Assembly (NCBI RefSeq): GCF_032854445.1
Contig: NC_088301.1
Location: 50,029,116 to 50,093,115 of the forward strand
DNA: 64,000 bases
Direction of reading: 5' to 3'
DNA from: Liolophura sinensis
Lineage: Eukaryota > Mollusca > Polyplacophora > Chitonida > Chitonidae
This document shows positions 2,869-56,899 of the stretch, one piece after another. The position numbers and the translations under genes are program-made. The notes below the pieces were generated by a model. That model was given only the letters and a program-made list of their open reading frames with translations, was not told the DNA's origin and ran no database searches. Position 1 is the stretch's first letter, and each line of letters starts with the position of its first letter.

Positions 2869-5800
2869 ATGGCCGCTACGATGAACGTGGTTCTTCTTCT
2901 GTCTGTTGTTTTCCCGGCTCTGGTCTTCGGTAAGCAATTTATGAGAGTATAAAAAACATGCGATGAGTGAAATTAATACGACATTTAACTCCACCGGAGT
3001 TTGAACCAGCTTCTTGCTTGTGGAAAAGCAATAATGAGGGTAGCGTGAGACAGGTAACAGGAGGCGTCGTTGTTGTTGCTGTATTGTACATAAAGTAATA
3101 GCAAACGTGGCAAGATAGTTTCTGCTTTTACTTGTAAGTTGTATTAGTTAAATTCACAATTCAGACAACAATTCCAGGGCATTGGACAATACCAGGCAAT
3201 TTTATGCAAGCATGGCTAGATTCCACGGAGAAGACCATTCGTTGATCACTTAGTTTCAGAATAGTTCAATTCAACTTAGGTCTATTTTCAACAATTTCTG
3301 ATATTTACCTGCCTCAACGTTTAATTTTTGAATTCAAAAACGCGGTAGGTCCATTCTGCAAGGCCCTTTGAGGAATAAAGTGAACCGTTAAAGCCACTCC
3401 AAAAAGGGGGCATGCGACGATTTCTGGGGCGCATGAAAGACCTTTATTACCTCTACTGCAAGTGTAAATTTATTCTCAAGTCGAAATGTTGCTGAAATCC
3501 ACAGAAATGTTTCCTTCTCACTCGTCCACAACATTGTATTGTCTGAAATTGATAGAAACTTGCAGGAATGATTGAAAAGACCCATTTCTTCTCACTCCAT
3601 ACCAGAAATCGGAGTGTACCGCCGTTTTGGAGTGGATTTAAAGGCCACCTTCATTGGGGCATGGGCCTACTCCATTTTTTAATTCAATGCTTAAATGTTG
3701 AGGTAGGTAAATATCAGAAAGTGTTGAAAATAGTCCTCAACTTCTTTTTTAAGGTTATCTTCTTGAAAATGTTCCCAGTACAAATTCTTGCGAGCCAGCG
3801 AGACAGGAGATTTAGCGATGATGCATAAATGCTCAGCCAAGTACAGTCGAATGCACTTGGATTCAGGAATAGGTTTCACACCTTAATTAATGACATAATT
3901 GGCAAGAAATGCCTACATACAATTATCTTTTGATGTTACTTTTGTTACGCCAACAATATACTTTATTTAGATGAATGAACAAGTTTCAGAACCTTTGGCA
4001 TTCCCAAATCCCAAATCCATGTACTTGTATAGGATATATTACGTTTGGGAATTGTAGGTAGTGATGTCTGTTCAAGCCCTGATGTGCAGTATGAAGTATA
4101 TACCACTCCAGAGACTGTATTGTCATCAGAGACCATCTTTATCATACAGTTTAAACTTAACTGTAAAAATGGGGCAAAGGTAAGGAGACATTTGCATGTA
4201 GTTTGTATTAAATTAGATGCATTAACAGCATTGTTAATAGTGTGCCTTCACAGGGGTCAGAATGTTTAGTCATTGACTGTTTTTCACTCAGCTGTACATA
4301 CACTGACCAGTGTCAAACTTATCTTTTAAAAAGCTATATTTTTGAAATATACAATTTGACAAGGTGTTAACAATTTTATTATAAGTCAGTGAACTGAGGA
4401 AAGATGTTAGAAAATGTCGCAAAAACCTACTATCCGAATCTGCTAGATTTTGCAAGACTGTTCATTTGTAACTAAAAGGTCATATTTAATTCTGTTTCAG
4501 AACTTAAACCTGTATGCAGAGATAAATGGGAAAACCATTGTGGCCACAAAAAGTGTTGAAAGCAACACTTACCAGGTGTGTTACACAGTGTAAAAGCATG
4601 GTTTCTGGACTTTCCGCAAATTATTATATAAAGTCTGGAACACACCATATTGCCCTTGTATAGCTCTCCTACAGTTTGCCACATAGGTCAAGTTTTATCA
4701 GTTTATGCTGTGACTGGATACATTGTCCACCCGAGTCTCTTTTGTCGCACGCTGTTCATACTTCCTCATTGTTTGACATATTTAACAATAATAGAGATCT
4801 ATTGCAATTCACCGTATCTTAATGAGGGAAATATAGTCCGCTAGTCTAGTGAAAGTTTGTGTTCATGACCAAAGTAGTAAAGACCTGCCTTAAGTTACAG
4901 TCTGTAAATAGATGTTTTCAATGTTTTGTGGCTTATTTATTTTATATATGTCTTTAACAATATTTGATTATTTGACTTACAGATTAGCATTAGTGATGAA
5001 CATAAAAATTTGCCAGCTGGTTCTTATCCAGTAAGACTCTTTGATGAGGATGGATATGCGGTTCTTAGAAAGGTAAAAATCATTACAAAGTGTTCCTTTG
5101 ATAATATCATAATGGTTAAGTCATGTATCCACCAGACCCGTACGAATTTTTCTACATATACCAATGGCTGATTTCTAAGATTTTTGGAAATTGGACCTTT
5201 TGCCAGTGGAGCTTTTGCTCCAATTTGGTCCTGATATAGGTGGGTAGCAGTCACATTTGGTCAGGCTCAAGTTGAAGTTTTGGTGTCCTTTGAAGTTTTC
5301 TTCACTGAAATCATAAGGTGATCAGGTGAACATATTTGTACCATAATTTTGGACGTAGTGAAAGGTAATGCAAGATTGATTTGAAGGACCTGAATCAAAA
5401 GGCATCAGTACAGGTGTACTGAGCCCATGCAATGCTGTCTATGATACATCTACATTCTTAAAGCCAGTATAAATATATCGGACACCTTGGAATTTTTAAC
5501 TCCGCGCTGAAAACTTCTTATGTGCCCAAAAGCCAGGAAGGCCATGGTGCCTGTAGAATAGCCGAGATGTTGCCTTTTTTTTTTTTTTTTCCAAAAGTTT
5601 CTGCCATTGGGAGTGCATCATTTCGAATTGGTGGATACAAGTATGTGTCTTTAATTATAATTGATGGCATAAGATTCGCTCTCTGAAAAACGAGATGCAA
5701 GAAAACTTTGAGTCACCATTTCCTGGGAGCAGTTATGTGCTATTTATTCAGATACAGATGTTATCAATATGGATAATTTTTTATTTAAACTGAACATTCA

Positions 5801-6591
5801 TTATTTCTGTCTTACTATTAGGTATTCTCCTTGATACTCATTCAATAATGGCCAGCTAGTGAAGCTATCACAAATTTGCATTTTAACTATATATCTTCAG
5901 TTGTAATATGCAATTATTTCTGTTGCAGGCTCAGCGAAGTGGTGAGGACACAAGTAATATTAAAGTTCTGAAAACAATAACCCTTCAGCACAAGGTAAGA
6001 TTTCCCACCTTGCATGTAACACTGCATTGTGCCGTGAGTTACTTAACACTGGCAGATGTCTCCTGACAAACCGTATCAATGCCGTAACAAGGTCATAATG
6101 TAGCCACTAGACTTCCACTAGCTGTGAAAAATAGGAGCTTGTATGCCCTATGAGGGAATATATTTGGTTTTGTTTTACTTTACAAATCCATGGTCATGTC
6201 ACAGGTAAACTTTGTGGCATTGTAACAATATCTGAAGGACTTTAAACAATAAATTGTGCTGACATCTTGTCTCTTAATCCGACTAGAAAACAAGTCTCAT
6301 GGCTTTTGTCACTATTAACGTATATGTTTTTCTTGTCGGCACAATATTTGAAGACCTGCTTGAATTAAATGAAGCCAGCAGCCATCGTATGTTATTCGCT
6401 GTGCTAGGAGTGCTGTATCAAGGTTTCAGATCTCTTGTACAGCCTAATTCTGACATCTCATAATTCTGGGCATTATATTGCAGGGTTTGTGGACTGGTCC
6501 GTATGTACAGAGCGAGTTTGTCGCTGCTGGAGTTGCCGTGTTGGTGTGGTACCTTGCCTATGCTGCCAGAGGAAAACTGCAAACAAATTGA
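2869..6591 (+). CDS. SSR4: Translocon-associated protein subunit delta (TRAP-delta), six exons
   Basis: This is a subunit of the TRAP/SSR complex, which sits beside the Sec61 channel in the ER membrane and assists translocation and glycosylation of secretory proteins. Coding exons are 2869-2929, 4058-4179, 4501-4575, 4983-5072, 5929-5994 and 6484-6591. All junctions are GT-AG and the frame stays open to TGA, giving 173 residues, the usual family length. Visible parts are an N-terminal signal peptide (MAATMNVVLLLSVV, cleaved near VFG), a lumenal domain with the paired cysteines of SDVC and KLNCKN, the conserved RLFDEDGY and LRKAQRSGED blocks, and one C-terminal membrane helix (EFVAAGVAVLVWYLAY) followed by a short basic tail. 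The first ATG after the predicted start site is used. The gene is convergent with the kinase gene that follows. Recognition is by family similarity and is very secure. Confidence 0.96.
3272..3748. repeat. fold-back (long inverted repeat) element in SSR4 intron 1
   Basis: The sequence from about 3272 to 3510 pairs with the reverse complement of about 3511 to 3748. Matching blocks include ctgatatttacctgcctcaac (left, about 3298) against its complement near 3700-3720, and cactccaaaa (left, about 3396) against ttttggagtg (about 3625). Identity is around 70-80% in the outer arms and lower near the centre. No ORF lies inside. The form fits a non-autonomous fold-back or MITE-like insertion. Confidence 0.7.
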
Positions 6592-8734: not shown

Positions 8735-10004
8735 TCAGTAGGGCCCTGCTCCAGAAGAATGAAAAAGACTAACAATTGACATGTTGCCCATAGCCATTGC
8801 AACTTGTAGCGGACTTCGACCACACTCATCTTCGGCTTCAAGGTCCGCACTGTGGTCAATCAGGAGGCGGACATTCATCACAGAGCCACTTGTGGCAGCA
8901 ACATGGAGGGGAGTCTGCAACCACTGATTACGCGACAACACACTGGCTCTTGCGCTACTCAGTAGAAGCTTGAGGGCTTCAGAATCCTTCTTACAAGCAG
9001 CATAGTGCAGTGAAGTGAAGCCATTGGAGTCCTGAGCATCCACGTTTACACTCCTACTGTCCAGGCTAAGGATATACTCCGTTAAATCAAGGTGTCCATG
9101 CAGCACAGCCAAATGAAGTGGACCCCTTCCTCTACCATCAGAGCAATCCAAGTTGGCATTGTATCTCAAAAGGATATCTACAACAGGCTTGTGACCATTT
9201 TGTATTGCCAATAGCAATGGGGTAAACCCAGCTTTAGATGTCAGTTCTATATTGTTTTTCCCTGTGGACAAGAGGAGTTGTACAGCTTCTACATAGCCAC
9301 AAGCGGACGCCAGGTGGAGTGGTGTCAGACCATGTTTGTCTACAGGTGCAACATCAGCCACTCCATCCAAAAGAATCCGGACCGAGTCAGCAAAACCATG
9401 CATGGAGGCCAGGTGCAACGCTGTTCGTTCTGCTACATTCCTCAGACTCACCACATCTGGGTCTTTTTGGACTAATAACTTCAAAATTGATGATCTACCA
9501 AATCGTGCTGCAATATGAACAGCTGTGTTTTTCCCAATAGCCATCACAAACAGACTAGCATTATTCTCCAGAAGAAGCTGAACCATTTCATCACAGCCCT
9601 TGATTATAGCCCAGTGTAAGGGTGTGAGGTACAATTGGTCCTTACAGTCCACATTCACTCCTTGACTGATGAACGTCTTGCTTGCTTCAACATTTCCTGC
9701 GAAAGTACTAAGATGCAACAGCGAAAGCCCATTAGCATTTTGTCCATGAACATTCAAATATGATGGCATGTCAACCTCATAGTCTTGCAAATTAATTTTA
9801 TTAGGAAATGAGTTTAGTGACGATGGCGCATTCTGGAAATGGCTCAGTCCAACTTCCAGGAAGACGCCTTTCTGGGTAGATGGGAATTTGGAAACAGAGC
9901 TAGTCACTTTGGTTGTCCATTTACGGAAAACAGATAGCGAACTATCTGCTTGACCCCATGCTGTTGGCACAGATTCATCAACAAGACCCATTTCTTTCCT
10001 CCAT
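8735..10004 (-). CDS. last exon of the kinase gene: linker plus nine to ten ankyrin repeats
   Basis: One uninterrupted exon encodes residues about 732-1154. Residues about 733-822 form a Ser/Thr-rich linker. From about 823 onward come ankyrin repeats of about 33 residues with the TPLHxA signature: examples are [41 protein letters not shown] and [10 protein letters not shown]. There are nine full repeats and a truncated tenth ending SSGAGPY. The acceptor is tttgtag before ATGG at 10004, and the split arginine codon (AG from exon 15 plus A) keeps the frame with the kinase. Ankyrin repeats bind proteins; the partner here is unknown. The exon could in principle be an independent gene starting at an internal ATG (9989-9987), but the acceptor and matching phase argue for fusion. 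Confidence 0.85.
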
Positions 10005-13000
10005 CTACAAACAGGCAAACAAACAAATACATCTGTGACTACTTAGTTATTACAGATATTGTATGCATATATATATTTTCATGTGTATATGCTAGTTGCT
10101 TTACTTATGTGAACATATCCTTCATTACAAAACGTAATACAGAAACATGCTTTAATAACCTTTGCGACCTTGTGGTCACCTGTCCAATTATTATTAATTT
10201 GATAACATGAAATAACCAAAATTATTATTATTTATGTAATGGTCATCCACCATTCCCCACCACTTTTGCTATTATTTTTACCATGTTTTACCATGCTTTC
10301 CAGGACTTCTGTGCGTGTTGTTTTTTATATACAGGATTTAAATCCTATGGAATCCTTTGAAAGTGTAAGAGATATTTGAAGATCGTGGTTTCATTTCATA
10401 AATCGGCATTCTTGAAGACTGGCAGCTTGAGTTTTGAACAAACCAAAACTCGCTAAATCCCGAAAGAACACCTTGTTGGTCTAACTCATCCTATTTTTGT
10501 TTTTCTTTTCGTGAAAGTTTCAAATTTCATCTGGTCACACGCGAGTTGCTTGTCAGAGATGATATAGTCATGTACATGAATTATGCATAATAAACACAGC
10601 CCATCACTATGACACCCTATGAACATTCATGTTGTATAATAATACTTAATTATTCTTTCTAAACAGTTATTGATAAGGGCAAGATCCCAGTTGAAACAAT
10701 AGTCAATGTTACCCCACCAGTACTTTTATCTGTAATCCGTGTGATAATAAGACATTCTGTTCCTTTAGGGCCTTTAAATGCCACCCAGTACACCCACACC
10801 AAGTTACAGTAAGACAGTATTCTCATTCCGCTGTAAAATTGCCAAAATACAAAATAGACCCTAAAGGAACATGCGTCCATACTTTGACACTAAGTTCAAA
10901 GAAAACAAACCTTTTATGCAGGCTGTTTGTGTTCTCTTTGATGTTCTCTATGACCTGCATAGTATCAAAGTTAAGGCTGTCCATGCTGAAACAAAATCAA
11001 AGGTATTCAAGGTGTGTTGTATGAAAGTTGTAATTCAATTTTTAGCGATTAGGCTTCAAATATGCAATTATAATCAATGTAATGAACAGATACAACCTAA
11101 CGGCGGTTTTCTTATAATGAGTAGATCATCTTTGATTGGCATTTAGAAAGTTGTGAAAAATGAAGCAGGATAGTACCTTTATAGGACAACAACGTTTCGT
11201 TGCAGAAAATTTAACTTAAATGATTTATATGACCTTGAAGAAGGTCATAGGGTCAAGGTTGATAAAAATCAATCAAGTTCTTCCCCATGTAATGGTGCAA
11301 GTGTGGGTGTACGTTTGGTGAACTTGGGCTAAGTTGTTCTAGAGATAGCATCTTTACCATCTTTTAATAAAATTAACTTAAATGACCTCAATGGCCTTGA
11401 AAAAGGGTCAAGATCACTGAAGAACAAAAGGGATCTTCCTCACGACGATATGTATTTATGGTGTGAGTTAGGTGAATTTGGCATAAATTGTTCTCGAGAT
11501 GTCATGTTTGGAAGCCTTATATAAAATTTAACTTAAATGACCCCAATAACCTTGAAGAAAAAGGTCAAGGTCACTGAAAATCAATAGGGTTCAAATTGGA
11601 ACTACAAAGAAACTTAATTATTGCCTAAAAACATAAAATTGTAAGATACCGATTTTCTGTAAAAGCATAAGTTAGCTATTGGAAGAAAAATACAGAAGTT
11701 TCAATTTGAATTGTTTAAGCTGAAAATTTGTGGTTATTCTCGGGTATAGTCTATAACAACGGCAGATTCATGAGATCAAGGAGAATATAGAATGAAATAT
11801 ACCTTTCTACCAGGTACTCGACTAACGAGTCTGGTTTAGCAGCTTGCTCCTGACTTCCATTTCGCACCCAACGAGCACCATCTCCTACGCCATGAGTAGA
11901 CTCTACAGACAGTCCCTCCAGGCTCTGAATTACCTTGTCGTCCTGGCAAAGCTGGGGAAAATATAATTTTTTACATTTTTTACATGTTATTAGTCAAAAA
12001 ATCATTTACAGAACAATAAAACTTAAACTGATATTTTAACACATTTCTGACAAAGAACCAATCCTTTGGTAAAATCCAGAAACAAAGCCACCTTCAGTTT
12101 GCCACCATAAATTCCAAATCGTTCAGCATCTGAAAATTCTCTACGATATCATTTAACACATATTATTCACCTTATCAAGCTTAACAGTAAAGCACTGTTG
12201 TAAAGCAATAAGATCTTCCATTTCCTTCTCAGTTCTGTGACTATCACGTCTCAGTGCACTGGCTTTGCTGAAATCAAAAAGTGACAAATAAAACTGCATA
12301 GCGAGATGAGTATAAAATACCTAAAATGTCAAAAAAGAACCCAGAACAGTGACAATACAAAGTAGTTCCTATCGAAATATCTACATCATTCTACTCCTGA
12401 GAAAAATCGGAAAAAAAAAAAAAAAAAAAAAATTTTCATTTGTGAGTAGAACAGAATATACTGTATTTGACACAAAACTTCATCCATGATTAAGTCACAC
12501 ATTTTCCTGATTTTTAAAGTTCTACTGATCAGTGGACATTAGAAAAAGTTTTTAATTTCAATCACTGTTATTTCCACGAAAGTTGAATAAATATTTTAAA
12601 TAAAGGAAATGATGTAAAACATAAATTAAATTTCATAAATCCTAAAAACTGAAGAAAAAAAAATTGAATTTTTGACAAAAATATACACAAAATTAAAATT
12701 GCTAATACCTATTTTGCTTTGTGAGCCAGCCACAATTCAAAACTTTCCATATATTTCAGACGATGAAGTGCAAATGCATGGAGACACTGGGAAGGCAGTG
12801 GTTGGGGGGGAGGGGATACTTACCAAAGCCATGCACAAGCCTTCAGATGGATCATTTGGGAATTGGGAATGCAATGCTCTCTTAACATGTTTCTTGCCTT
12901 CCCTGTTAGCGTGTACAGATTGTTCCTGGGAAACATCATATGAAACCTTAAAACACCACATTTTAACCTTAATGGTACACCACTTATCAAACCAGAAAAA

Positions 13001-16000
13001 AATACTGAATTATTCATTAAGTTTTATTTTACGCCAGAATTCCTCCATGTTTAGACAGTATTTATTTTAGCACACTTTGTTGGCATCATTCTGTCTATAC
13101 TGATAGAACCTTTGTGAATCCCATGTCAAACCAGTGAACCCAATCCACACAAGTATAAATCAAACTACATCTGAAGTTGCCCATTAATTTATATTTTCGC
13201 TGAACTTAGATTTGGTAGCAAGGCTACCAAACACTTCACATGTAGGGGACACAAGAATGCAAAACTTCAGTTCAATACATAACATTTACTTTAACAAGGA
13301 TTCTAATACAAACAAGAAGATGCAAGGGCACTAAGTGTTGTCATTTATGGTAATTAACAAACCTGCAGGGCATCAAAAATTGAACATAGCTTTCATGTCA
13401 CTGCACTTTATATGTATGCAAAACCTGAACTCAATACATGCGGTACTTTTTAAGATAACACCTCTAACATTTCCTTATTACTGATCCCGCTGTTACTGGA
13501 CAGTGATGGGTACGACACAAACATAGCTTGTACTGCATACAGATGAGCTTAAAGGCAATTTGAAAGACCATTCAATTGTGAAATGACTGAACACATTATT
13601 TCATTAATTGGTCCTTTTGCAATTATTTGACGCTCACTTTTCAAACTTGTGTATCTGTTCATCATTGTATGGTAGCACCTTCTTCTGTTTATCTATTTTG
13701 AAACGTTCCATTATAACCGTAGCACTCTTAATTGTCATTTCAAGCCTTGGTGCACTGAAACATATAATATTTTACAAATGTATATGAACATACAGGCTAA
13801 AGGTCTTCACAAAAGAAGAAGTCAAGTTAAGGTGGCAGGTAAGAGGGAAGTATCAGGATGGCTGACAATACCAAGAAGATGTTTCAACTTCAGGACTGTG
13901 TTTGTAATGATACTGCACAAGCACAATGGTATTCATCATGTATGTCCTTTTCTGCATATGCGTTCAGACACCTTACTTGAAACAACTATATAGATTATCT
14001 TAACAGAGAGTGGAGTACATACACCTGCTAGGCAGGGGGCATAACTTGTGTTCTGAGCATTCTTGGTTTCCCTTTTTATACATGTACATCATGTACAAGC
14101 ATGTAGCAACAAACTGACATTATCATTAACTTTGAGATGTGCCAAGGCAAAGTGACTGAGACATGGTCAATGTATGATTTTACCTTTGTCCTATTACTCA
14201 GGGTCAATAAAAATATTACCTGATTCCAAAATAGAAAATTTGTTAAATAAAATAACTCAATTTCACAGAAAAATATTTCAGATTACAAATTTCCATTATT
14301 ACCGCATGATCTACTAAAATAATTACCAGCGCATAGACTCTTCACAGCCCAACTTGAAGTCCCAGTCATTTTGGAGGTCTTTTCTTTCAAGATGATGAGA
14401 TGTGTAAAGACCAGTGCTCTTATTTATCACTGACAATAACTTATCCATCTGAAAAAAACAATATTTACAAAAAATGAAGTCATTCGTAGGTCAATTTTTT
14501 TGACATCCAAAGATTAAATGTGGGGCTAATTTAAACATGAAACAGGGGTATAGTGGTATATAGGAGCTACTGCAAATCTGCTCATGTCCCCATACATAGA
14601 CCAAACTAAGATCAGCATTTACTTTACTTTTAAGTTATCAACAACCAGCATTAAAGTTTAACATCAAGAATTACATCAGATGACATATTTTTTAACAGTT
14701 TATTTATTATAAACATTAAACCTTAATACACTAGATCATGGTAATAAAACAGTAATTGTGTATTTTAGTGGTACGCATAGTGAAAAATGTACATTTTACA
14801 CATATAGGTACATTGGTGCGGAATTATTGGCATTTCACATTACATGATCTGCAAACCATGCCAACTGAAACATCAATCCCATTTGTCAGATTGATTCCGG
14901 TTCAAAATTTTAAATAAATTACACCTTGCTGGTGTCTTGTTCAAACTAGACTGGTAGTGTTCAAAGAACCAGCGCTGAAAACATGAACCATTTCACTTGT
15001 CTTCTTGGAAAATCAGATAGAATGACTAGATTTAATTTCTTATAAAATCAAAAACATACCTTGACCTCAAATTCATCTAAAATTTGTCGATTAGACTGCC
15101 ACTCCCTTGACAACATGTGTAACAGCTTGGACAGGGCAGGTTTTTCCTGAGAAAACAGCCTAAGCATATGGATCTTATCCTCTTTGCTCCTTGAAAGATC
15201 CAATTTTCGTTTCTTTGTTTCTTGACAAAATCTTCTTAAATGGAAGTCATTATCCCTCAAGTGCTCCAGTGAGTGATACAGCTGATGTCTAAAAAAAAAA
15301 AACGTACTAGAACAAATATTTGCAAACAAAACACTCTGTGAAACTGTTATTAACTGGACAATCAATTAACTGTTGATTTGACATGATGACCATGCATAAA
15401 AAAGTTTGACAAAAATGAAATTCCAAATATAATGCCTTCTGAAAGCTTTTAAGTCTGTGAATGAAAAAAATTTGTATGAAAGCTTTTTCCTGGCAAACCA
15501 TAATATTTTTGTTCAGTTTACTTAATTAGACTGCAGTTTGTGGGCCCAAGTGTTTTCAGAACTAAAATGGCTCTAGATATGGCTCTGTATGCCAGTTCTG
15601 TTTTAGAGATTTTTTTAAAATCTGATAAATCACAAGCCTTATTCCACCAGTCTCACCTTCTCACTGGCTACAGATTCATCTTTATTTATGCCTGAATTTC
15701 TCCTCGTGTCTGGCCTATGTACAGTAGTGTCAGAGTACTTACACATAATTAACAATTCCCTCATGAGTAAGACGTTGCCTTAACACACAGTCAGAGATCT
15801 CTCGGTGAATGGCATGGAGGATACCGACACACATCTTAGCCAGTGGGTAGTCATTGTCCAGGCTCATTGTGGTGCTGAATCGTGGGAAGTTGCCTAAAAC
15901 CACATAACAGCATAATAGGTAATTGAAAGTGAGAAATAAGCCAGTCCTCAGTTGTTCTAGGAAGTACATATACATACTTGTAGATATGTGAAGCTCAATG

Positions 16001-19000
16001 ATCAAAAATATAATAGCAACAACGTTTTCTTGCACAAAATTAATCTTATGAATTCATTTTATAAATGAACTTCCAATGTTTGGTTAGATCTTGAATGAAA
16101 AGGCCAGCTCTTATAACAGACATAACAAGCAATGTAGAATCAGCTGGCTGTGTAAAACTCTACACACATTCACTACGACAGTAAATAATACAGTGATCTG
16201 TTAGATGTAAAAACATGAACTAATCAAGTAACATAATTATGCATGTATGGCTTCATGCTTAAAGTACAAGGTCTTATTTATATACAGCTTTGGTTTGTAC
16301 TTTGCTGGTCTCAGCAAGTCTGGTGCATCATCCTTAAGTCAATGACTTGGGATGAACAAAGCAGGCACCATTTTATAAGAATGCATTTAGATATGGGGTC
16401 CAAACAGTTCTCATCCATATTGCAGAAATTTGTGCAAATTTTGCTCATGTTTGTAAATATTTTAACACTTTCCAGTGCACATACTGGTGTCACTGGTAAC
16501 ATACTGTTTATGCATACTGGCCAAATCTGCTTTTAAACAGCAAAAATTGTCTGTGTATAAACTGGCGGAAGCAATAGCATAGAGTCACCAAAGAATTTTC
16601 CCCAAGAGCTGAATCATCCTATTATCAACTGAGCCCCTCAGGGGCAACAGCTAAGAGACATCATAAACAAAACTCACACTCACTGATATAAGGTGATGGA
16701 AATGGATGTGAATCATTGTCATCTTCTGTGAATATGAAGATTGGTTTGGTGTGACTAATACACCTTGGGTAAGTCACAACTGTCTGTGTTGGGTCCACAA
16801 TTTCGGATAACAACTGGTTCTGGTAGATTATCAACTGCTTTGGTGCTGGGATTTCCGTTTGCTGTGCCACAAGTTCTTGAATCTTGGTTAAGCTATAAGT
16901 AAAGCATAATATGAAATTTACTAGCCCCATATATGTATGCTTAGTTACTGAGCAACTGTGTAACTAATACTGTCAAGTGCTTGAACAATATATACATGCA
17001 CCTTCCACACAAAATATTTTGTAAGAAGTGCCTTGAGACATGTATGTATTTAGTCACTGGATTGGATTTGAACACCCTACTCCAGGTTGTGAGAAACTGG
17101 ACTGCCAGAAGTAGATGACTGTTCTTTGCAAAATACTTGACAATGCCACTGAAAAATAAACCACTGAGAAGTAGATTAATACCAGTAAGTGAAATGGTCT
17201 GTGGCAGAATAGCTTTTGTGGAAGGAGCCACATGGGTCCTCATTTACTGTTATATTTCGTACGTGCATATATGCAAGTATCAAGTACAAATATGGGTGAC
17301 CCCATATTACAGTTGATAATAGAAGTACAAAGCGCTTTTTTCCTGTAATATGGATGTGATATAATAAACTCTCTTGACCAGAGAGGAAGCCATACTTTTC
17401 TGCGTGAGAAATGAGAGAGAGCCTTACTTGTCTGTAACATTAGCATATATCTTTACTAGGGTCCATGTTGGGACTGAAAACATGGGGATGACTTTCTTGG
17501 AGGTAATTTTCTTGGCTTCTATGAAGAATCTGTCGAACTGCCAAGTTTTCCTGGGATCTGCCTCAAGAAGACTTGCCAAGAAAGGGACAATCAAGAGTTG
17601 GAGGCCTTGAGAAGCTCGGCAGGACTGAGGCAGTTCACGACTCCACTCAATTGGACCTGCCTCTGTGTTCTGCACACCAGAGATAATACCAGATTCCTTC
17701 TGTGTTGTTATCTTGTGCCTGAAAATACAATAGGCAGGGCATGAATGAGATAATTACTATTATGAAAAATTAGAAGTGCAATCTTCGCTCGCTTATAAAT
17801 AAAAAGTCTCCAGTGTTTACAGGAAGAATTTTCTCCACGTCCTGAGTATATTCAATAATAACCCTTCAGCTACAAACTAAAGCACTAGTTGTATTAAAAA
17901 ATAACAAAAAAAATAAAATCAAAATAAAACAACAGTATTTATAGTACAGAATTACTCAATAAACTGGCTTACATGGTCTCTCGGTTTCTTCGACCTCCAA
18001 AAGGTCGAAATGGCAACTGACCAGTCAGAACATGATAAAAGGTAACGCCTAAACTCCACAGGTCCACAGTAGCACAGAAAACCTTGTAATCTTGGCCTCT
18101 CAGAACAGCTCGCTCATACATGTCTGGGTGCTGCAAATTAGAATAGGTTTTACTAAGACTGAACTCAATTTTCTACATGTGCTAGTCTCCTCTGAAAAAT
18201 AACAATGTTTATTTGTTTGTACAAAAAAAAGGAACCTACATGAACCAAATCTATACAATTATGATATATTTTCAGAATTTTTTGTTTTCACAGGGAGCAA
18301 TTCCTGCGATGCAAATTGTAACAGTTACCATACCTGTTTGTCAATAGTCGGAGGTTTATAACACGTCACGAAATAGCAACGTATAAATACTGTCTCGTGA
18401 CATTGTATACTGAACAGCAACAAGGACTGCTAAGGCTGTCCAAGGCACAGTCATAACAGCCAGGTTTCATCCAAATGCATCATTCCCCTTATTATTTCTT
18501 GACAGAATTACTTGATTTTTTTTTTTTTTTTAAATTTTGTAAACTTGCTATGTTTTACTAAAGTCTGTAAACATTAGAGCAAATCTGCTGTATATGCTTT
18601 AAATTTGGTATTGCTTAAGAAGAAAGAAATTTCTTTCCAAAATGAAGGACAGAATATGTATACTTCAAAAAAGTATATGTAGCAATATCTTTAAAAATTT
18701 CCTCAATGTGTGATTATCCAAATGTAGATCTTTGTTTGCCTGCCAGCTGTTACAAATTTGGCAACAGGAAAAAGGGAAGAAATATTCCTGGTTTTACCAA
18801 ATATTCTTCTGTGCCATAGAGGGACATAAATTGTTCCTCTTCCTCTAGCTCTCTAGCTGCACCAAAGTCTGTCAGCTTATAAATTGACCTGGAATAAACA
18901 TACACAGGAGCTGATTTCCAAACATCCCAAAGGCACCAAATATGAAATTACTTTATGTTACAGACCACATACATGCAACCTTATGTACAAGACCAACTAT

Positions 19001-22000
19001 CCACCACCCATTTTACCACCTATTACAGGGAATGTTTCAGTCACGCCATGTCTAAAAGGCAACATTTCTTGGTGAATAGGTGATAAAACTTTCCGCCATA
19101 TACAGTCTGTCAGTTCCTGCATTGTGATGGATTGATGGATTTACCATGCTTTTAACACATCGGTACGGTCAAGACTGATGTGAATTTTATCACGATGGAT
19201 CAATACAAAAGTCTACCACAAAACTGAAACTGAAAGATTTGTATGCCTGTCAAGTCATATTCAACAAGTGACTATACTTACATGCCAGCACATTTTTTTT
19301 AGACAAAAATTCCATTCTTACTATCAACTGAACATTCACATACCAGTAGACGGAAAACATGTTAAAGTGTATGCTTACAACTTATGATAAAAGACAACTC
19401 AAATTCTAGTAAAGCTGATTGCTCTATCTCAAGCTTGACAGTAAAATTATAAAATATCTTAAAATGACTGAATATGTGTTGGATGTATGAATATAAATCA
19501 TAATTACTTACTGTTCCAATAAACCTTACCTTCCATCTTCAGAAATAAATCTCATAATATTGCCAGGTTTTATATCCCTATGGACAATTCCGTGTTCCCG
19601 CAGATGTTTCATCCCAGATGCTGTATAATTCAATGGTACAGGAAATTTAATGAAAATTATAATGCCTTGAGCACTACAGACCTTTTACACTACCTCTTAA
19701 AAAGTCTAAAGAATTTGTCCACTAAACAAATCAATTTTGAGAAGTTCTTTTGTTGTCAGTGTTGAATTATAACAGTAAAATGGGTATACTTTGGCCATCC
19801 CATGAGACCTTCAACCTTTTAGGCAACAATGCCCAAATAAGTGAATCTCAGAATGAAGCAGGTAACTGTATCAAGACCCCATAACTACGAATTCCCAATC
19901 CACATTCCACTTTTTCCCCACCCCTAAACAAAATTCCTGGATTTTTCACATAGTAAGCATCCATCACTACAATAGAATGTCTAAGTTTTATTATCACGGT
20001 GCCCATGACAGTGCTGGCACTTTTGGTACTGATAATCTACTGTGCCTAAATGTTCATCTGCTCTGAGGTGAATACCCAACCAGTTTTAGGTTCACAACAT
20101 CCATGCCAAAATTCAACTAACCTACATGTTCCAAGATTAACAGAAACTCTTCCTCCTCAACACCAAAAGCATTCTTGGGCTCCTCCAGCATGGTGTAACA
20201 CTCCCCCCAGTGCACAATTCCATCACTATAACCTGGGTTTGTTGACCCTTGCTGAAAATGACAAAGTCCTCCTTGAAAAAATAGATCCTTTTTCAGAATA
20301 TAAGGGGAAGTTCGCAAAACAGATATGATTTTAATGGCATGTACTTCCATAATAAAACAATAAAACTTAACATGGACATGTAAGATGTTGTAAATACAAG
20401 TACATTTGGATCATCTTAAAAAAATAAAAAAGGATACAATATTTATTTATTATTTGATTGGTTTTTTATGCTCTTCAGTATATGATATACAAATACCAAT
20501 GCCATGAATGCCAAAAGACAAACACCTTTACACCATTGCATTACACATACCTCTGTTTCTGAGGCGATCATGCGGACTATGTTTACATGGTCCAGTTTTC
20601 TGAGCACTTCAAACTCTCTGTTCTTCACTCCAGTGGGTCTCAAGTTACCGGCATCATTAAACCACTTTCACTGCCACCTGCTCTCCTGTCCTCTGCTGAA
20701 GAAAGAACTTGCCAAACCTACTTGGTCAACAACAACACTTTCAGCATAACTCTGGTTATGTATTAATGACGGTCCAATTCACAGTACTATATCTCTCTCT
20801 CCCCGTGGAACACCATTCAGAGGTCACTGCTGCCACAACACCCAAATGCAGTGCACTAATATGAGGAAGAAAAATGTATCTCCTTTGAAGAATACTAAGC
20901 AAGGAGAGTAGCAAGGTTTTGAGCTCTTCAATACAACTCTTTGTGTCAAGGTCTGTCTCGTATGTTTCTTATGCATTTGTACATGTCTAATCTTAAGTAA
21001 CCAGTAGTTCTGCAAAAATCTTAAGATATTATAGCTGTAAACTAAAGGAAAACAAAGTAGCACCTGAAAATAAATACTATACTGTGATCATACACTAACT
21101 TTGATCCTACCCGTTATCAACGCCTATTCGCAAATGGGCCACATAACAATTTTATTTTATTTGATTGGTGTTTTACGCCGTACTCAAGAATATTTCACTT
21201 ATACGACGATGGCCCAGCATTATAGTGGAAGGAACCGAGCATGTATAATAAATACTCAGCAAAATTCTCGTCTTAGAAGTGAACATGAGAAAAATACCTC
21301 ATGCATGCATGTATAATGCTGCATGATACGCTATCTGTTCTCCATGAAGGCGAGCATTACACTGGGTACTTGAATGAAACCCTACACTAACCTTCATTTG
21401 CACATATATACATGTTATGTATATCCATGTTTGAGGTCCTTATCTCTACAAAATCCTTGGGTACTTGAATAAAACCCTACACTACCTTGTTTTGCACATA
21501 TATACATGTTATGTATATCCATGTTTGGGGTCCTCATCTCTACAAAAGCCAGATTTACGAATGGGTAGAGCAGCCTAGTTTGACCTATATACACTAAGCA
21601 TTTTGTATTTTATGTTGAAATCCAAACGAGAGCGCATGTGCATGGCTTGTCCATTTACACACTTGTAGCTTGAATGGACCAAACAGCATTTACTCCTTCA
21701 GCACACACGTAACAACATGGGCTAACTACACGTACATTTATGCTCTACAGGTGAGCTCATCTGCATCATCAGAATCCGTATTTGAAAATACAGAACAGTG
21801 TTTTAAAAGTGAGTACACTTATGTAACACTTTCTCATTTGGCATTATGAAAACTTTCATTTGTCATATCATTGGCTTGCGGACAACAGGGTGCCATAAGA
21901 CCTGCAAATATTGTTCACTGAATTTGTTTCATAAAAAGATTCCAAAAAATTAACGAAACATCCAATATTTTTAATGGTACAACTGGTTGGAGGAGGAAAG

Positions 22001-23867
22001 AAATTAACATGTATTTAGGCAGAGTCAATCTATCTGTCAATTCTGTCCAATCTATCTGTACAACGCTGAATCCAGGACAAAAGCCTTGGCAGACAAAAAC
22101 CCTGGCAGGCAAAAACTCTGGCGGACAAAACCCTGTCGTTTTAATTAACCAATAAAACATATCAGACAGTCTTACAAACATGATGACAAATATTTGTTAA
22201 GGGGACTTCATACAGTGTAACTTTGTTTTCCATCTAAAAATTTGTCATCAAAGGGTATCCCAGTCTGTCACTCGAGTTCAACAGCTTTTCTCTGTCTCTT
22301 ATGTCTCTAATATTATTATTAAATATAAGTTTATTCTACGTAGTATCACTATACTTGATTGTTTGGCTGAAACACTATGATTCACAATATCACCTCTCGG
22401 CTGCCATAATGTATGCATTTTAGTCAGTTTACCAGACATCTCATGTAATTTTATGTGTTCACCATAACAGATGTTTCTAAAAATTTTGATTATTTCGACA
22501 ATTTACACCAAATATAATAGTTCAAGAAAAATATTATTTTTGAATATAATATAAAAGAATAAATTATAATTTATTTTTATAGGTTACTGTGTATTTTTTT
22601 TATATGACCCTATGTGGATGTACATGACAAATAGAATGAATCCACTGATCTTAACATTAAATCAGAAGAATTCCATATTAATTATGAAATTATAAATTTA
22701 TGTATTATTCCCCAAAATCCGGAAAAATGAATAAAAAAACAACAAAAATAGGCTATAGCATGTAAAATATATTTCCAGGCTATGAACAAGTGATATATAT
22801 ATATATATACGATTTGTATTCTTACAATAGGCAAAAAAAAATCCAACACAAGCTGCAATATAGCAATTGTTAACTGTACGTGTAGACTTCTTTAGTTTTC
22901 AGATAAGCCTGGAATGGAGGTCAAGCATCCTGTATACTTCTGAGAGATATATCTCTTTTTGATGTCGTCAAAAAACGGTCAAAATACATGGAGACTGAAC
23001 GAGCAAGAAGATTTTCTACTGACCACAAAGATGTATTGAAATCTGGTAAACGTCACTTAAGGCAGAATTTTTAAAGTTTTCTCACACAAGCAAGCAACCT
23101 ATGTTATTTTTCATACACACTTAATACTGATCAACTGCTTATGTCCACCAGGAGTTTGTCTGCAGGAGTTTTGTCCACGTGGCTTCTGTCTGCCGTGGCT
23201 TAAGTCTGTTCCTCGTACAAGGCTATATCACATGATTTGTGGCCAAAAATTCAGCTTCTTCGACTTACCTAAAGTTTGATTTGTATTTTTAGCTGTACTC
23301 AAGAATATTTCACTTATACAACGGCAGACAGCATTATGGTGGGAGGAAAGCTGGCCGAACCCAGGGAAAAACTCATGACCATCCCGCATGTTGCTGGCAG
23401 ACCTTCCCACTTAATTATGACCAAAGGAAATCAGCATGAGCTGGACTTGAACTCACAGAGGCCGCATTGGTGAAACTCAGAGGCTCCTGAGTCAATGTGC
23501 TGTACTGACACGCTAATCATCACACCAAGCAAGTCTCAAGTTTGTTATTCTAAGAATGGGATTTTCAGAATCAAATAGAGGCCTTGAAATGATAATTTTG
23601 ATTATATTTTTGTTTGATAAGGAATTAAATCAAATTTCATCTGCAAAAAACACTCTTACATAGCCCTGTCAGGTGGATGAATCAATCAGAATCAAGTAAA
23701 ATGTATCAACTGAAAATGCAAAACTCTAGCTCAAATGGTGTGATTTTGGTATTATTTGACATCTACTATACCTTGTTTCTTCCTGGACACACCATGCTGG
23801 TTGCTCCTTGACCAAGCAAGCGTTTCACATCCCAAATATAGCCAGGTGACCCTCTTAGACCACTCAT
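8735..23867 (-). CDS. TBK1/IKK-epsilon-like serine/threonine kinase with a C-terminal ankyrin-repeat domain, 16 coding exons
   Basis: IKK-related kinases of this family phosphorylate innate-immune and autophagy targets. Coding exons (minus, 5' to 3'): 23867-23772, 20692-20551, 20251-20122, 19620-19530, 18888-18798, 18130-17973, 17718-17428, 16892-16684, 15893-15743, 15288-15060, 14448-14327, 13754-13638, 12946-12824, 12267-12171, 11951-11803, 10004-8735. All have GT-AG borders and consistent phases, giving about 1154 residues. Visible parts are a glycine loop [13 protein letters not shown] lysine in VAVK (about 41), hinge and LEEPKNAFG, catalytic HRDIKPGN (about 136-143), [14 protein letters not shown], activation serine in [10 protein letters not shown] (about 175, equal to TBK1 Ser172), a ubiquitin-like region (about 310-395), and helical scaffold with [12 protein letters not shown]. 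This TBK1-like part is about 732 residues, nearly the whole human protein. The last exon adds linker and ankyrin repeats. The start ATG has an in-frame TAG 18 bases upstream within the same exon (23938). As assembled, exons 2 and 3 carry single-base indels that break the frame. Confidence 0.9.
10759..10870. repeat. short inverted repeat in the kinase-ankyrin intron
   Basis: GTTCCTTTAGGG at 10759-10770 is the exact reverse complement of CCCTAAAGGAAC at 10859-10870, about 88 bases apart. An unidentified open stretch on + (about 10871-11020) follows. The element type is unknown. Confidence 0.5.
11205..11600. repeat. diverged tandem repeat (about 155-bp unit, three copies) rich in AAGGTCA
   Basis: Units beginning near 11209, 11368 and 11524 each start with aatttaacttaaatga or a variant, followed by a ccttgaa..aaggtcaaggtca block. 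Copy 3 contains a perfect TCAAGGTCA at 11565-11573; copies 1 and 2 have TCAAGGTT and TCAAGATCA. Copy 3 is truncated. The repeat lies in the intron between the kinase and ankyrin exons. Confidence 0.75.
13205..13530. repeat. dispersed two-unit repeat, locus 1 (kinase intron)
   Basis: Two related units share the pattern tgcaaaac..caatacat..tttaagataacac..ctaacattt, joined by a tatggtaattaa block. The same two-unit arrangement recurs at 28860-29230, so it is a dispersed family rather than a local duplication. Confidence 0.65.
20122..20251 (-). other. kinase exon 3 with two compensating single-base indels
   Basis: The exon has the expected length for 43 codons plus one base, and its end ([20 protein letters not shown]) is in frame with exon 2. 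The middle is shifted by one: the family-like [12 protein letters not shown] reads only in the next frame. The simplest explanation is one extra G in the run at 20246-20248 and one missing base near 20197. Both are homopolymer-type changes. Confidence 0.75.
20551..20692 (-). other. kinase exon 2 with an extra base and a NAGNAG acceptor
   Basis: The exon is 142 bases, one more than 47 codons. An extra G at 20662-20663 puts a TAA directly after VAVKV; without it the reading continues [20 protein letters not shown], as in TBK1. The acceptor reads ttcagcag, so splicing at 20695 or 20692 would include or skip one glutamine. Frame is unaffected by that choice. Confidence 0.8.
21151..21242 (-). mobile_element. 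SINE fragment (copy b)
   Basis: It contains tail, ggtgttttacgccgtactca, agaatatttcacttatacga and a decayed core, then stops at gagcatg. It lies in kinase intron 1 in the same orientation as the kinase gene. Confidence 0.8.
21363..21550. repeat. tandem duplication, 95-bp unit, two copies
   Basis: Unit 1 (21363-21457) and unit 2 (21458-21550) both run tgggtacttgaat..aaaccctacact..gcacatatatacatgttatg..gtcct.atctctacaaaa. Identity is above 85%, suggesting a fairly recent duplication inside kinase intron 1. Confidence 0.8.
23277..23526 (-). mobile_element. near full-length tRNA-derived SINE (copy c)
   Basis: This is the longest copy. Read on minus it has a tRNA-like head with a box-B match GTTCAAGTCC (complement of 23443-23452), a middle with agcatgagctgg-type sequence, the conserved core around ggtgggaggaaa, and the cacttatac/tactcaagaatattt 3' part. 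The core resembles the deeply conserved Nin-type SINE domain; that family assignment is recalled and unchecked. Confidence 0.75.
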
Positions 23868-23999: not shown

Positions 24000-26900
24000 T
24001 GTTCAAATTCCACAATTCCTAAGTTTTCCTTGGTTTGTTATTCACATTACTTGGGGCCACAGATCTTTCCCCTAATTTCTTATTCACATGATGATTACTC
24101 ACTAAACAAAAAATCACCATCAAAATTCATAAATTCATAAAAGAGTATTTCTGTTTTACAGCAAAATATCCTTAAAGTACCTTCTTCTGTAACACATGTA
24201 CTTCAATGAATCACTACCAATGAACCGCTGTGTCATATCAAGATTATTTCATCATCAATTGAATAAAATGTGAAATTGAATGGCATATGTTAAGCTATTT
24301 ATTTTAAAACACATTCCCTCTGTCCAGGAGCCTAAAAGAAGAATTTAATCATGTAAAATAATGAGACAATTGTTGAGTACCAGTACCATATATTCATTAT
24401 ATATTTATACACCAAGACCCATTTTGGGAGGATCAGAGTGAGTGCTTGGGGTTCAACATGGTACTTAACGTGGTATGACGACAACTCTCAACAGGAAAGG
24501 CCTTTTTCACTATATCGCAGTGTCTAACCTATGCAGTCATGACCTAGATACTAGCACATGCCTATATCACATGATACCAGCGTATAACAAGCCTAGGGGA
24601 CAACCAGTACTGAATGGATTACACATTTCAGGTCACACCATTTGGTGAGTGTAGAATGTAGAGACCATCACTGTCCAATATATGTCCAAGTGAATCATAT
24701 CAGCACTTTGCAACTTGGTCCTTATCCATGCAGTGCTTCATAGCGTTGAATATGTAATTACCAAAACAATGTTCTAGGTTGCCATTACCATACTTGTCAT
24801 TAGGTAGTTATCTGCATATTACACGATGAGGGTTTGATAATGAAACCAACCCAGAAAAAATGGCAAACTATTTTTTTTAACCCAAACGGTTTCTTCACTG
24901 AAAGTTAGTTTATTTGATTTTCCGGCCATCACTGCATCTGTTCCAAGTGATTGACATACAGTAGAAAATAATACCTAATCAAGTCATTTTGAGACAGGAG
25001 ACCTTATATTTATGCAACACAGTGTAATGGCATCATGTTCTCCAAGNNNNNNNNNNNNNNNNNNNNNNNNNNNNNNNNNNNNNNNNNNNNNNNNNNNNNN
25101 NNNNNNNNNNNNNNNNNNNNNNNNNNNNNNNNNNNNNNNNNNNNNNNNNNNNNNNNNNNNNNNNNNNNNNNNNNNNNNNNNNNNNNNNNNNNNNNNNNNN
25201 NNNNNNNNNNNNNNNNNNNNNNNNNNNNNNNNNNNNNNNNNNNNNNCGAGACGTACATGTAGGGTTTAAAAAAAAAAATCAAGATTAGAAGTAAGTGCGC
25301 CTAGTTTATGAATGATGGTTCCAAGTGTAACATTCGGAACCCAACTTTTATATGACAGCTACAGATGAGCTTATTTGGCGTATTTTTTTCACTATGTAAT
25401 ACAGCCTTATTCTGATCGACAGAAAAAAAGAATTCCAAAACTCTTAACACAATGTTAATTCTTTCTGACATGTACATGTACTTTACGTTATTTGTGAAAA
25501 CCAAAGAGAATCTAGCTCTAAATTGTATAGTATAGCCAAAGTCGCGTGTTCAGCCAGACGCAGTTATAGATAAACAAGCATCAGTCTTAATCCATTTGAT
25601 CTATTTGATTAAAAAATAAGGAAGTTTATCTATTGTGTTCATTTCAGTACAGTACATGTGGAATATCTGGAATTTTGTAATTAGGCGATACATAGTATAC
25701 ACTTTGCATGTAATGTCGGATCAGATTCCCCCTGGGACATAAAAAGTTCATGATTTCCATTCCAGAACGCTATAGCATATTTTTTTAATCGCTTGAGGTG
25801 GTAAAAGTTCGTGGCCAATGCAAGCACGCGTAACTACTCCAACGCAAGCGCAGATAGGTGATTTGCGTTTTATAGCCGTCAGAACTTATTCACGCAATGG
25901 TGAAAACAATTCAGTTAAGGAAGACAGTTATTCCCATATATACTGCCACTATTTCCACGCATGTATATATGTCAGCAGATTTTTCCTCCCACGCAAAACA
26001 AGTAGGGCCTACCACATTCGCACATATATAGATATCAAGATATCCCCATATAGTCTTTAATATCTGCACTATTCGCGCTACAAAGGCCTCATATAGTTAC
26101 CATATAAACATCGGAACGAAGCTGTTACCAATCGTCACGCCTGACTGATGCTTTCCAAATAATTGCCAATTCCCATACAAATACCATTCATAACACAACT
26201 CCGTAATTTAAAACACATAAATAAATAAATAAATAAGCATGAAAAGCAAAACTCTGTAAAAGAAAATAAGGCCTCTGTCGTGCACCAAATTTTACTTATT
26301 TTATTTCATTGGCAATTTGTCAGTTAAATCTGGGACTTATCCAAGTTACATATGCATGACTTTGGTCAGGTTTATGAGTGCATGCAGGCGATCAATTGTT
26401 TTCAATAATAACGCGAATGCAGGGTATATAATCCGCATTTGCTAGTCATATCAGGAAGTCATATTGTATTTGGATCTCAGTCGCGCTATATTTCCAACAT
26501 ATTTACATATCGTGGTAATACCAAACTGTTTTAGTCCAAAGCTATCTGGGACACTACTTACTGCCCAGCTATATACCTTTGGGTTAATCGGCATAGGTAT
26601 GGCGCATGTAACTACATACCCTTGTCCTGGGTGCAAAAGTTATTAAATACGCCATCGTCCAGAGCGATCTGCTGCGCATACATATGTCGATAATTTAGGT
26701 CTTTCTATCTTTTCAATACTCAGAAGTTAAAGTGAAACCCTTTAAAAGGGTTTCCTCAGCAAACCCGTTTTTGATGTTCTAACCTGTTATATGGGCTGCA
26801 ACCATCATACAATGCTCAGAAACGATTAAATTTTACAATTAAAATATCTTTAAATATTAAATATTTTTGACGTTTGTCTGTTCGTGCGTCCGGCTATACA

Positions 26901-47820: not shown

Positions 47821-50637
47821 TGTTATTTTGTATTTTTATGCATTTGTAAGCTTACAGGCGTAGAATTGTATGTTTTCTGTCTGCAGTCTGCGTATACTAC
47901 TCATTGAATTTTCACTCTCTAGTTACATTTATATAGCATGCTCACCATTAAAATGGATTTAAATGGAAATTTCGTAAATTTAGACATACTGGTACAACGT
48001 CTTTGTTGTTAATTGTAATAACTTAAACATGCATGCAGTGACAACAGACATGGCAAATCGTACGTATCAAATAAATGCATGCACACGAAAACTCTGAACT
48101 GATCACATAGCGATGAACACGAAATGCAAGATTCGCATTTTCAAAATACCTCACCTGTTTATCGTAATATCTTCGCCGGCCTTAACACCACCATCCTGCT
48201 TAACTAAATATGAAGGCTGACGTCATAAAGCACAATGTTTTCACTTTCGCAATGAGCTATTCCTCATTTGATTTGTCGGTTCGGTCGTAATTCTTTTGGA
48301 ACATGGTAACTACAGGTGCAATGATCACAAGTGCTATAATCTAGCTAGGCGTTGAACATTTTTATATATAATTGATATTTTATTGTTGCCAGATAGTAAA
48401 CTTAATTGGATCTCCGTGATGTCCAAATCAACACCACGCAGTCGTTTCTCAGTCTTACAGGTAACTGGAAAAGCTAAAAATAAATCGAAGAAAACCAACT
48501 ACTGAGATATTCCTTAAGCACCTAATCTAGTCCTTGCTCTCTGAAGTCGGCGATTATAGTCATCGTTTTATTAACCATAAGTCAGTACAGTTCAGCTGAA
48601 ACAAAATCGCAAGTGCATACATCAATCTATTAAACCTATGCAAACACCCCCAAAAGCAAGGAGAAAGTCCAAAGTCCAATTTCTAAGAGAAAGTATCGAA
48701 TTGCCTCTCTTAGACCGATGTATTATAAATGATGGAGGCTTAAACCAGAAGGGAATTCCAGCGTTAAAAATTCCGTCGAATTAATTAATTTAGTGGGCTA
48801 ACCGGTAGAAACAATCGCCCTTCACCGGGTACCTGACAAATCAGCGTTTCAGTGACCTGTCCGGATATTAATTTGAAGGGCTTATTTATCAGTGGCTCGT
48901 ATTGAGATCCGCGAGGAGGATAGTGTATACATCAAGTGCCTTAAGGCTTAAGTCATAAATTGCAAGTTTTTACAAAAAGCCACTCAAAGCACTGCACAAC
49001 TCAGATCTGCAGTAAAGAATCAGTGTGCAAAAACTGTGTTTGAATTTTTTAGTTAAGTCTGAAAACGTTTGATAAATACAGGCCGTGCTTTGCATCATGG
49101 CAAGACTCATGTGAGTAACTTGTTACCGCCTAGTGCGAGTGCTGGCATGAAATAACCTCACATCCCCTTGGTACTGTCTTGCTTACCAACCTTTGTTACA
49201 ATTGTATTGTCTTTAGCAGCATTAAATTCCGCGAGATGGAAACTTTTAAAGTGACCAGCATGTTTCAAACATCACAGGGCTCCGTGCATTCCCTTTCGAA
49301 CATGCAAGAAAATGCGAGATGCGAGATTTAATGCGGCAAAAAATCTGACCTGTAAAAATAAATTCCTAATTTATAAAATACATATCATCATCACAAAGTT
49401 AGTCATTCTATATATCAGTTCCAATAAACATTTGTTGCGTTGAACAGACGAATAAGCGGACGGAGAAACGTGCGGACGAACATATACAGTTGATCAAAGT
49501 TACTGAATTCATACAGCCTTTTGGTTCTAGGGCTATAACCAGAACAGCAACGTAAGTCTGCTTGGTTTACGAACGTTTTTAGTTTCAGCAATAGAGAAAA
49601 ATAATTAACACCAACCTGTGGCGAGCAACAAGTTCAAGTGTAACGGTAATGTTTCCTGATGCCTTGTACAGAACAGTGGTCCCAGTGGGAAAACGCCGTA
49701 ATGTATGAGTAGGCTTTATGGGCGTGAACACTTTGTCGATTATAAACAACACTCTTCAGTTGTAGTGAAATAGAGCTTGGAACACAGGGCCCTATGTGCG
49801 TAATAGATTTACTTTTGTAGGCATAGAAACAATGGTTTGACAAGTGCTTGTTCATCTTCATGCAGATTTGGCATAAAAGCCTATGTTGCACATTCCCTGT
49901 TTTTATCTCTAGTTTGACTGCTAAAACAAATAAGGCCTACATACTTTCTGTGAACGTATGGATAATACAATACAAAGGGACTATACAATGTGGAGAGGAA
50001 GGCTTCGGTGGCCGAGGGATCAACGTAAGACTATTCGCAGGTTCCTGACAAAGCTCACGTACGGCCGTAGGGGAAGCCAGCATGAACAGGACTGCTCAAA
50101 GTGATTTATAACCCTGATATGATGAACATAAACCACAAAGTGCTCAGATGGAAATATCTCTTTCGGGAAAATGTGGTTGGCCCTGAAAAGGTCCGTTGGG
50201 AAAAAATAATCTTGAAAAAGGCTGTTTTAAAATAACGACGACACTCCATCGTATGGGTTGTCTACATATGGGGCATTCATGAATGGAGAGGGGCGTGTCA
50301 GGCACCATCGGCAGAAACTGGCGTGATGGCAAAGCGAGAGGCAGGTATCCGCTGAGGTGGTGGTACACACGATGAACTGTTTCGTTGATGTTTACAAAAA
50401 AAAACTATGACAAAAAGTATTTAAATAGGACATTCTTTTGCAAGGATGTAGGTGATGAGTAACCTAGCTTACATGGTCAGAATGACAGGCTATGTAGAAG
50501 TATTCGGCAGCCGTCAGTAAGGTCGCTCAGCCTGCGCGCGGGGCCTATAGCTACGGTGATCTGTGCTTGTGTGCGTCTTTTCCTGGCGACAGCTTACCCA
50601 AGTGTACTGCATGATCTCAAATGATGAAGCCAAATTC

Positions 50638-50801
50638 TCTTATATATATGGGTCTGTCATCAACCTGCAGATGGTCGTGGGTTTTCCCCGGGCTCTGCCC
50701 GGTTCCTCCCACCATAATGCTGGCCGCTGTCGCATAAGTGAAATATTCTTGAGTACGGCGTAAAACACCAATCGAATAAATAAATAAATCTTATACATAT
50801 G
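50638..50801 (+). mobile_element. 5'-truncated SINE (copy f) with near-perfect target-site duplication
   Basis: The element (about 50651-50788) reads in the opposite direction to the other copies and ends in an AATAAATAAATAAA tail. TCTTATATATATG (50638-50650) and TCTTATACATATG (50789-50801) flank it, matching at 12 of 13 bases. The core gggctctgcccggttcctcc is intact and the tRNA-like head is absent. Confidence 0.88.
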
Positions 50802-53760: not shown

Positions 53761-53804
53761 ATTGTGTGAGCACCACGTACCCTGGACATCTGGAGATGAC
53801 CCCC

Positions 53805-53860
53805 AGCCCAACCAGCTCAACCGACCAGTTGACCAGACCAGCCCAGCCTAACCTTCCAAT
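53805..53860. repeat. low-complexity CCAG/ACCAG stretch
   Basis: Irregular repetition of accag and cccag words just after the polymerase relic. Confidence 0.5.
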
Positions 53861-56071: not shown

Positions 56072-56074
56072 TGT

Positions 56075-56858: not shown

Positions 56859-56899
56859 AGGGTCTCAAAAGGTCGGGGATGTCCACGGTACCGTCTTTA

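Follow-up and report, generated by a model that had tools for sequence, protein, structure and literature searches.

A chiton TBK1 gene whose last exon appears to continue into ten ankyrin repeats

The cGAS-STING, RLR and TLR pathways meet at TBK1, as does selective autophagy. TBK1 and IKK-epsilon proteins share a plan of kinase, ubiquitin-like domain (ULD), coiled-coil 1 and coiled-coil 2 adaptor tail, and the usual proteins end shortly after that tail. Here we describe a gene of the chiton Liolophura sinensis that has the same parts and falls beside molluscan TBK1s in a kinase tree, but whose reading frame continues for about 420 residues and includes ten ankyrin repeats. The gene lies in a 64,000-nucleotide stretch of DNA (contig C7:50,029,116-50,093,115), called the window below and used for all coordinates given without a contig. 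We consider it probable, at about three chances in four, that the chiton TBK1 ortholog has lost its native stop and that its last exon runs via a linker into an ankyrin domain of ten repeats, so that a single protein of about 1172 residues is predicted. That a single mRNA covers the gene, and what the fusion does, we infer from the DNA.

The best 120 of 3656 database matches to TBK1 are 673-831 residues long, are 37-52% identical and agree in their domain content, with TBK1_ULD and TBK1_CCD1 entries. None of these 120 has an ankyrin Pfam entry, which bears out, for this set, an earlier statement that no known TBK1 carries ankyrin repeats. Going by group names, the set presumably spans molluscs, annelids, nemerteans, a brachiopod, insects, hemichordates, a lancelet and tunicates. 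Literature searches for ankyrin repeats or fusions in TBK1 or IKK, and for these kinases in molluscs or chitons, mostly leave subscription journals outside; among the papers listed, no title or opening of an abstract describes a TBK1-ankyrin fusion. A scallop TBK1/IKK-epsilon paper describes the kinase, ULD and CCD1, and the word ankyrin is absent from its main text (PMC9879056).

The junction between the adaptor tail and the ankyrin exon

The gene occupies the minus strand from 23867 to 8735, at C7:50,037,850-50,052,982, and comprises 17 exons in compatible phases, with every intron bounded by GT-AG. Exon 16 (10985-10911, 75 bases) encodes the coiled-coil 2/adaptor-binding tail, and its product aligns with the C-terminal coiled-coil 2/adaptor tails of TBK1 proteins (23 aligned of 120 fetched). 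The first-pass annotation had given the TBK1 part fifteen exons and about 732 residues, and had joined 11803 directly to 10004. It recognized the TBK1-like character correctly and passed over exon 16; because this exon begins and ends in phase 2, the frame looked continuous without it. The correct junction is 10911/10004, and 750 residues precede exon 17.

Terminal exon 17 (10004-8735, 422 residues) opens with a stretch resembling a native TBK1 tail (10003-9944), continues through a linker of about 64 residues (9943-9752) and closes with the ankyrin domain (9751-8738) and a stop. Pfam matches of the conceptual protein include Ank_2 at 205.3 bits, with Ank families above their cut-offs, and the kinase and the ankyrin domain are each beyond chance. 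The predicted structure places at least 90 of predicted local distance difference test (pLDDT) confidence on 304 of the 422 residues and contains ten helix pairs, and hence ten repeats where nine to ten had been suggested. Model confidence is low in the linker, which is predicted to be disordered.

The evidence for the junction rests on the resemblance to a native tail and on a second sequence, P0121. Exon 17 begins in phase 2, and its tail-like start holds TAWGQAD; the C-terminus of abalone TBK1 reads TAWQQPD and that of Gigantopelta MSWEQPD. The tail exon of a TBK1-like paralog in the same genome closes with SLQER, whose final codon is split by the donor after AG, and exon 16 is built alike, ending SLHKR at the same phase-2 position. 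Two Haliotis asinina isoforms (P0019 and P0020) are identical through SLLH and then diverge into R-stop versus SFNGLGLEVDTAWQQPDIT-stop, as would be expected, judging from the proteins, of a codon split as AG/N. The donor position shared with the paralog and the codon at which the two abalone isoforms part both lead one to expect a phase-2 last exon after the exon 16 tail.

To score the resemblance, the first 40 residues of exon 17 were compared with four tails (three abalones and Gigantopelta) or with 11 gastropod tails bearing a W near the end, both sets picked after looking. The four-tail score of 111 was reached by 29 of 5000 shuffles. Among the 2513 phase-2 acceptors of the window that are followed by at least 20 open codons, three reach it, two of which are registers of exon 17. 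The same two registers rank first among the 195 phase-2 acceptors between 10909 and 6000 when all 11 tails are used (227 versus 209 for the next), in a ranking whose scores favour long frames.

P0121, from a 7592-base public contig, aligns with exon 17 over 418 residues, ungapped, with 89% identity across 99% of the exon. Identity is 19/20 in the tail-like start (the last 16 residues are the same in both), 29/32 in the proximal linker, 20/32 in the distal linker on the ankyrin side and 305/334 in the ankyrin part. Since the chiton genome contains no second close copy of exon 17, the next match being 32%, P0121 probably comes from another, related species. In both sequences the tail motif is joined in frame to the ankyrin domain, and the tail-like start and the ankyrin part both look constrained. 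P0121 starts at an in-frame Met that four codons of exon 17 precede, the start that a mechanical gene caller would pick on genomic DNA. A 321-residue query made up of coiled coils, tail and linker matched P0121 alone (one of 546 candidates), over 27% of the query. The in-frame TBK1-ankyrin chimera proposed in the first-pass annotation thus gains from the phases, the GT-AG sites, the Pfam domains, the likeness to a native tail and the frame of P0121; its count of 16 exons rises to 17.

A number of observations weigh on the other side. The 11-tail score was reached by 455 of 5000 shuffles, and the best single-tail score by 135 of 5000 shuffles and by nine of the 2513 phase-2 acceptors. The third acceptor in the four-tail comparison, at 55405, is unrelated and outscores exon 17 (136 versus 111), and the listed bivalve TBK1 tails lack the W motif. 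Downstream of the paralog, unrelated-looking frames reach 270 against 12 tails; because they top the score of exon 17, the all-tails score discriminates little. The phase match at the junction is weak taken alone, with a chance of about 1 in 3. The acceptor of exon 17 is weak as well. A small splice model derived from the gene's 15 other acceptors gives at least this score to 2465 of the window's 6977 AGs, so that splice-site scoring is uninformative about the junction; among all 16 acceptors of the gene, just one ranks lower. No protein that crosses the junction or combines TBK1 with ankyrin repeats is found among the database matches listed for the fusion, and P0121 begins downstream of the exon 16 junction, so that the junction lies outside its span. 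The native-tail match is suggestive but short, and its shortness counts against it; it carries weight because it is located at the one acceptor where such a tail is expected. On balance, exon 17 appears to be the native last exon of TBK1 with ankyrin repeats added to it.

A terminal exon of the paralog was also sought. None of 455 acceptors was convincing; the best two score 270 (12 tails), above the 227 of exon 17 (11 tails), and have poor acceptor sequences.

An independent ankyrin gene was weighed seriously, and we came to regard it as unlikely after the native-tail resemblance had been seen. Under this alternative, TBK1 would end after exon 16 or within intron 16, an intronless ankyrin gene would start at the ATG at 9991, and the phase of the junction would be coincidental. 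The Met in question has a G at -3 and a G at +4 and is the very residue at which P0121 begins, which speaks for two genes and against one, as do the one-in-three phase match and the weak acceptor discussed above. When the frame is read on beyond exon 16, 28 further residues are open, but this retained-intron tail scores only 46, compared with 111 for the start of exon 17, and a separate ankyrin protein would have to carry a motif like a TBK1 tail inside its first 16 residues. Moreover, the donor of exon 16 scores well (146 of 7813 GTs equal or exceed it) and its position is common to the paralog, so a further terminal exon is expected. Between exons 16 and 17 there is no AATAAA and one ATTAAA, at 10156.

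The TBK1 part and its surroundings

Upstream of the junction, the exon model follows the order of a TBK1 protein. Exon 1 (23867-23772) holds the start codon and the glycine-rich loop, exon 2 (20695-20551) the kinase N-lobe with VAVK, exon 3 (20247-20122) further kinase sequence, exon 4 (19620-19530) the HRD motif, and exon 5 (18888-18798) the DFG motif and the activation loop SLYGTEEYL with its serine. The C-lobe is encoded by exon 6 (18130-17973); the kinase ends and the ULD begins in exon 7 (17718-17428), and the ULD continues in exon 8 (16892-16684). Pfam assigns coiled-coil domain 1 to exons 9 to 13 (15893-15743, 15288-15060, 14448-14327, 13754-13638 and 12925-12824). By alignment, exon 14 (12267-12171) is coiled coil and exon 15 (11951-11803) is a variable region ahead of the tail.

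The conceptual protein scores 146.5 bits for Pkinase (cut-off 31.7), followed by TBK1_ULD (PF18396) at 52.9 bits (cut-off 31) and TBK1_CCD1 (PF18394) at 80.6 bits (cut-off 25.9). Solved TBK1 chains align to residues 4-651 with an E value of 9.4e-146, compared with 1.1e-31 for IKK-beta, and TBK1 is favoured by 490 versus 113 bits. Because VAVK, HRD, DFG and the activation-loop serine are all present, the kinase chemistry should be ordinary. In a kinase tree of 25 rows, which included no IKK-alpha/beta rows, the gene stands next to 13 rows from gastropods and bivalves, where a chiton sequence should fall, at a fork of 92/90 that is under the tool's star threshold. Its branch length is 0.37, against a median of 0.29. 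The fused gene looks like the canonical TBK1 ortholog rather than a stray duplicate. The paralog lies about 2.6 Mb away (C7:47385975-47398650, plus strand), and its branch of 1.28 is so long that its position in the tree is unsure. No ankyrin match to the fusion query was found in the 40 kb around it. Near the paralog, at about C7:47,409,645, is a frame that we take to be Rab-like.

The kinase as assembled is not intact. One-base frame breaks, which the first-pass annotation did not record, occur in exon 2 near 20,665 and in exon 3 near 20,198, and conserved kinase sequence flanks both in different frames. The conceptual protein was read with X at the two breaks, which precede HRD. No intact kinase is readable from the assembled exons 2 and 3, and this tells against a functional fusion. 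With the remaining 15 of 17 exons open, the catalytic motifs in place and a branch of ordinary length, errors in the local consensus or a recent allele seem likelier to us than an old pseudogene.

That the locus is a pseudogene in decay or a chimera of the assembly, with real frame breaks and a dead kinase, we hold to be improbable. It can point to two breaks only about 470 bases apart, each with stops after it. Yet the splice sites are canonical, the frame of the ankyrin exon is maintained in P0121, and the locus is the genome's best TBK1 match, the sole other TBK1-like gene found being the divergent paralog. The gene has no internal assembly gap: it contains no N, and therefore is not a scaffolding join. 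The genome searched here comprises 609,464,459 bases in 632 contigs. It was first published as that of Liolophura japonica, with 609.5 Mb in 632 scaffolds, an N50 of 37.34 Mb and 14X high-fidelity (HiFi) coverage (PMC11068029), and a coverage of this order makes local consensus errors plausible. The species name has since been corrected to L. sinensis (PMC12441733).

The window's only run of N, exactly 200 bases at 25047-25246, lies just upstream of the TBK1 gene and is either a scaffold gap or a masked stretch. On the other side, exon matches to SSR4 (TRAP-delta) at 4060-6582 of the plus strand, in an orientation that converges with TBK1, confirm that the neighbour named in the first-pass annotation is real. 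A short repeated element with AAGTGAAATATTCTTGAGTAC occurs on the minus strand at about 23290-23330 and 21160-21230, and similar frames are seen near 7240 and 32600; we assume it to be a tail of the short interspersed nuclear element (SINE) type common in molluscs. The stretch 50001-58000 is GC-rich (47-50%, versus 32-43% elsewhere), and both of its strands carry open reading frames of 95-190 residues. A search with seven of the 13 frames listed there yielded no Pfam match; the stretch is possibly a mobile element.

Possible roles of the ankyrin domain

The course of events that we think most likely starts from an ordinary TBK1 ortholog whose native C-terminal stop was lost, with the last exon then extended through the disordered linker into the ankyrin domain. 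Placed directly behind the adaptor tail, this domain would most likely act in cis as a recruitment module, a constitutive surface that directs the kinase to a specific partner, a substrate or a membrane protein. In human cells the separate adaptors TANK, NAP1 and SINTBAD are found in different compartments and compete with one another for coiled-coil 2 of TBK1, a region needed for activation at physiological levels (PMC3169550).

The fusion could also be made and act otherwise than by general recruitment, either through autoinhibition or by docking Rel proteins in the manner of I-kappa-B; taken together, we hold these two to be improbable. Ankyrin repeats are the established Rel-binding fold of I-kappa-B and p100/p105, and TBK1-family kinases are known to act in NF-kappa-B and IRF signalling. 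The structures closest to the ankyrin part, however, are ankyrin-1/2 and NOMPC by sequence (best 60 of 462) and ankyrin-1/2 by fold (best 50 of 997 chains aligned). No I-kappa-B or NF-kappa-B chain is among those 60 sequence matches; I-kappa-B, tried as the closest fold, is not among the 50 fold matches, an absence among the matches listed and no exclusion. A pattern search found no degron of the DSGxxS type in the fusion or in P0121, which sets the chiton protein apart from I-kappa-B, and the 11 Pfam matches of the conceptual protein include no Rel homology domain, which sets it apart from NF-kappa-B p100/p105. The docking role that the first-pass annotation had drawn from these families is left unsupported by these comparisons. 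The autoinhibition variant meets no counter-evidence in our results.

No pLxIS-like interferon-adaptor motif was found in the fusion or in P0121. Bacterial ankyrin effectors from NCBIfam were set aside as generic ankyrin similarity (best 121.9 bits, against a cut-off of 600).

Returning to recruitment, a bolder version would make the main TBK1 of chitons self-scaffolding or self-sensing, with the ankyrin domain replacing TANK-type adaptors, or directly binding a ligand or membrane receptor as RNase L does through its own repeats, which would unite recognition and signalling kinase activity in a single polypeptide. This is a long shot. If the fusion is real, a lineage with an ankyrin-bearing canonical TBK1 would be a natural experiment on TBK1 targeting, in which the ankyrin domain could be used as bait for its partner. 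It would also show how a conserved signalling hub can gain a large domain once the stop codon of its last exon is lost.

Comparison with other ankyrin-bearing proteins

Set against described proteins, a TBK1 with ankyrin repeats would be a new variation on a known family. Ankyrin-1 and ankyrin-2 offer the nearest match to the repeats themselves through their membrane-binding domain, but the chiton protein has no spectrin-binding or death domain among its Pfam matches; the likeness appears generic and does not imply a shared function. RNase L has the opposite order, with ankyrin repeats first, then a pseudokinase and a ribonuclease, whereas the ankyrin domain of the chiton protein follows its kinase.

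A precedent in architecture is offered by RIPK4 and RIPK5/ANKK1, in which a kinase from an innate-immunity family is likewise followed by an intermediate region and, at the C-terminus, by ankyrin repeats. They belong to another kinase family and are not known to have the ULD or the TBK1 coiled coils, whereas the chiton kinase scores best with TBK1 and has both ULD and CCD1. A study of this family (PMC10492769) counts eleven repeats in RIPK4, places the gain of its ankyrin domain after the first vertebrates and considers the repeats of RIPK4 and RIPK5 to have been acquired probably by domain shuffling. We infer that these proteins and the chiton fusion are not homologous in this respect and have converged on the same architecture, a TBK1 in one case and a RIPK in the other.

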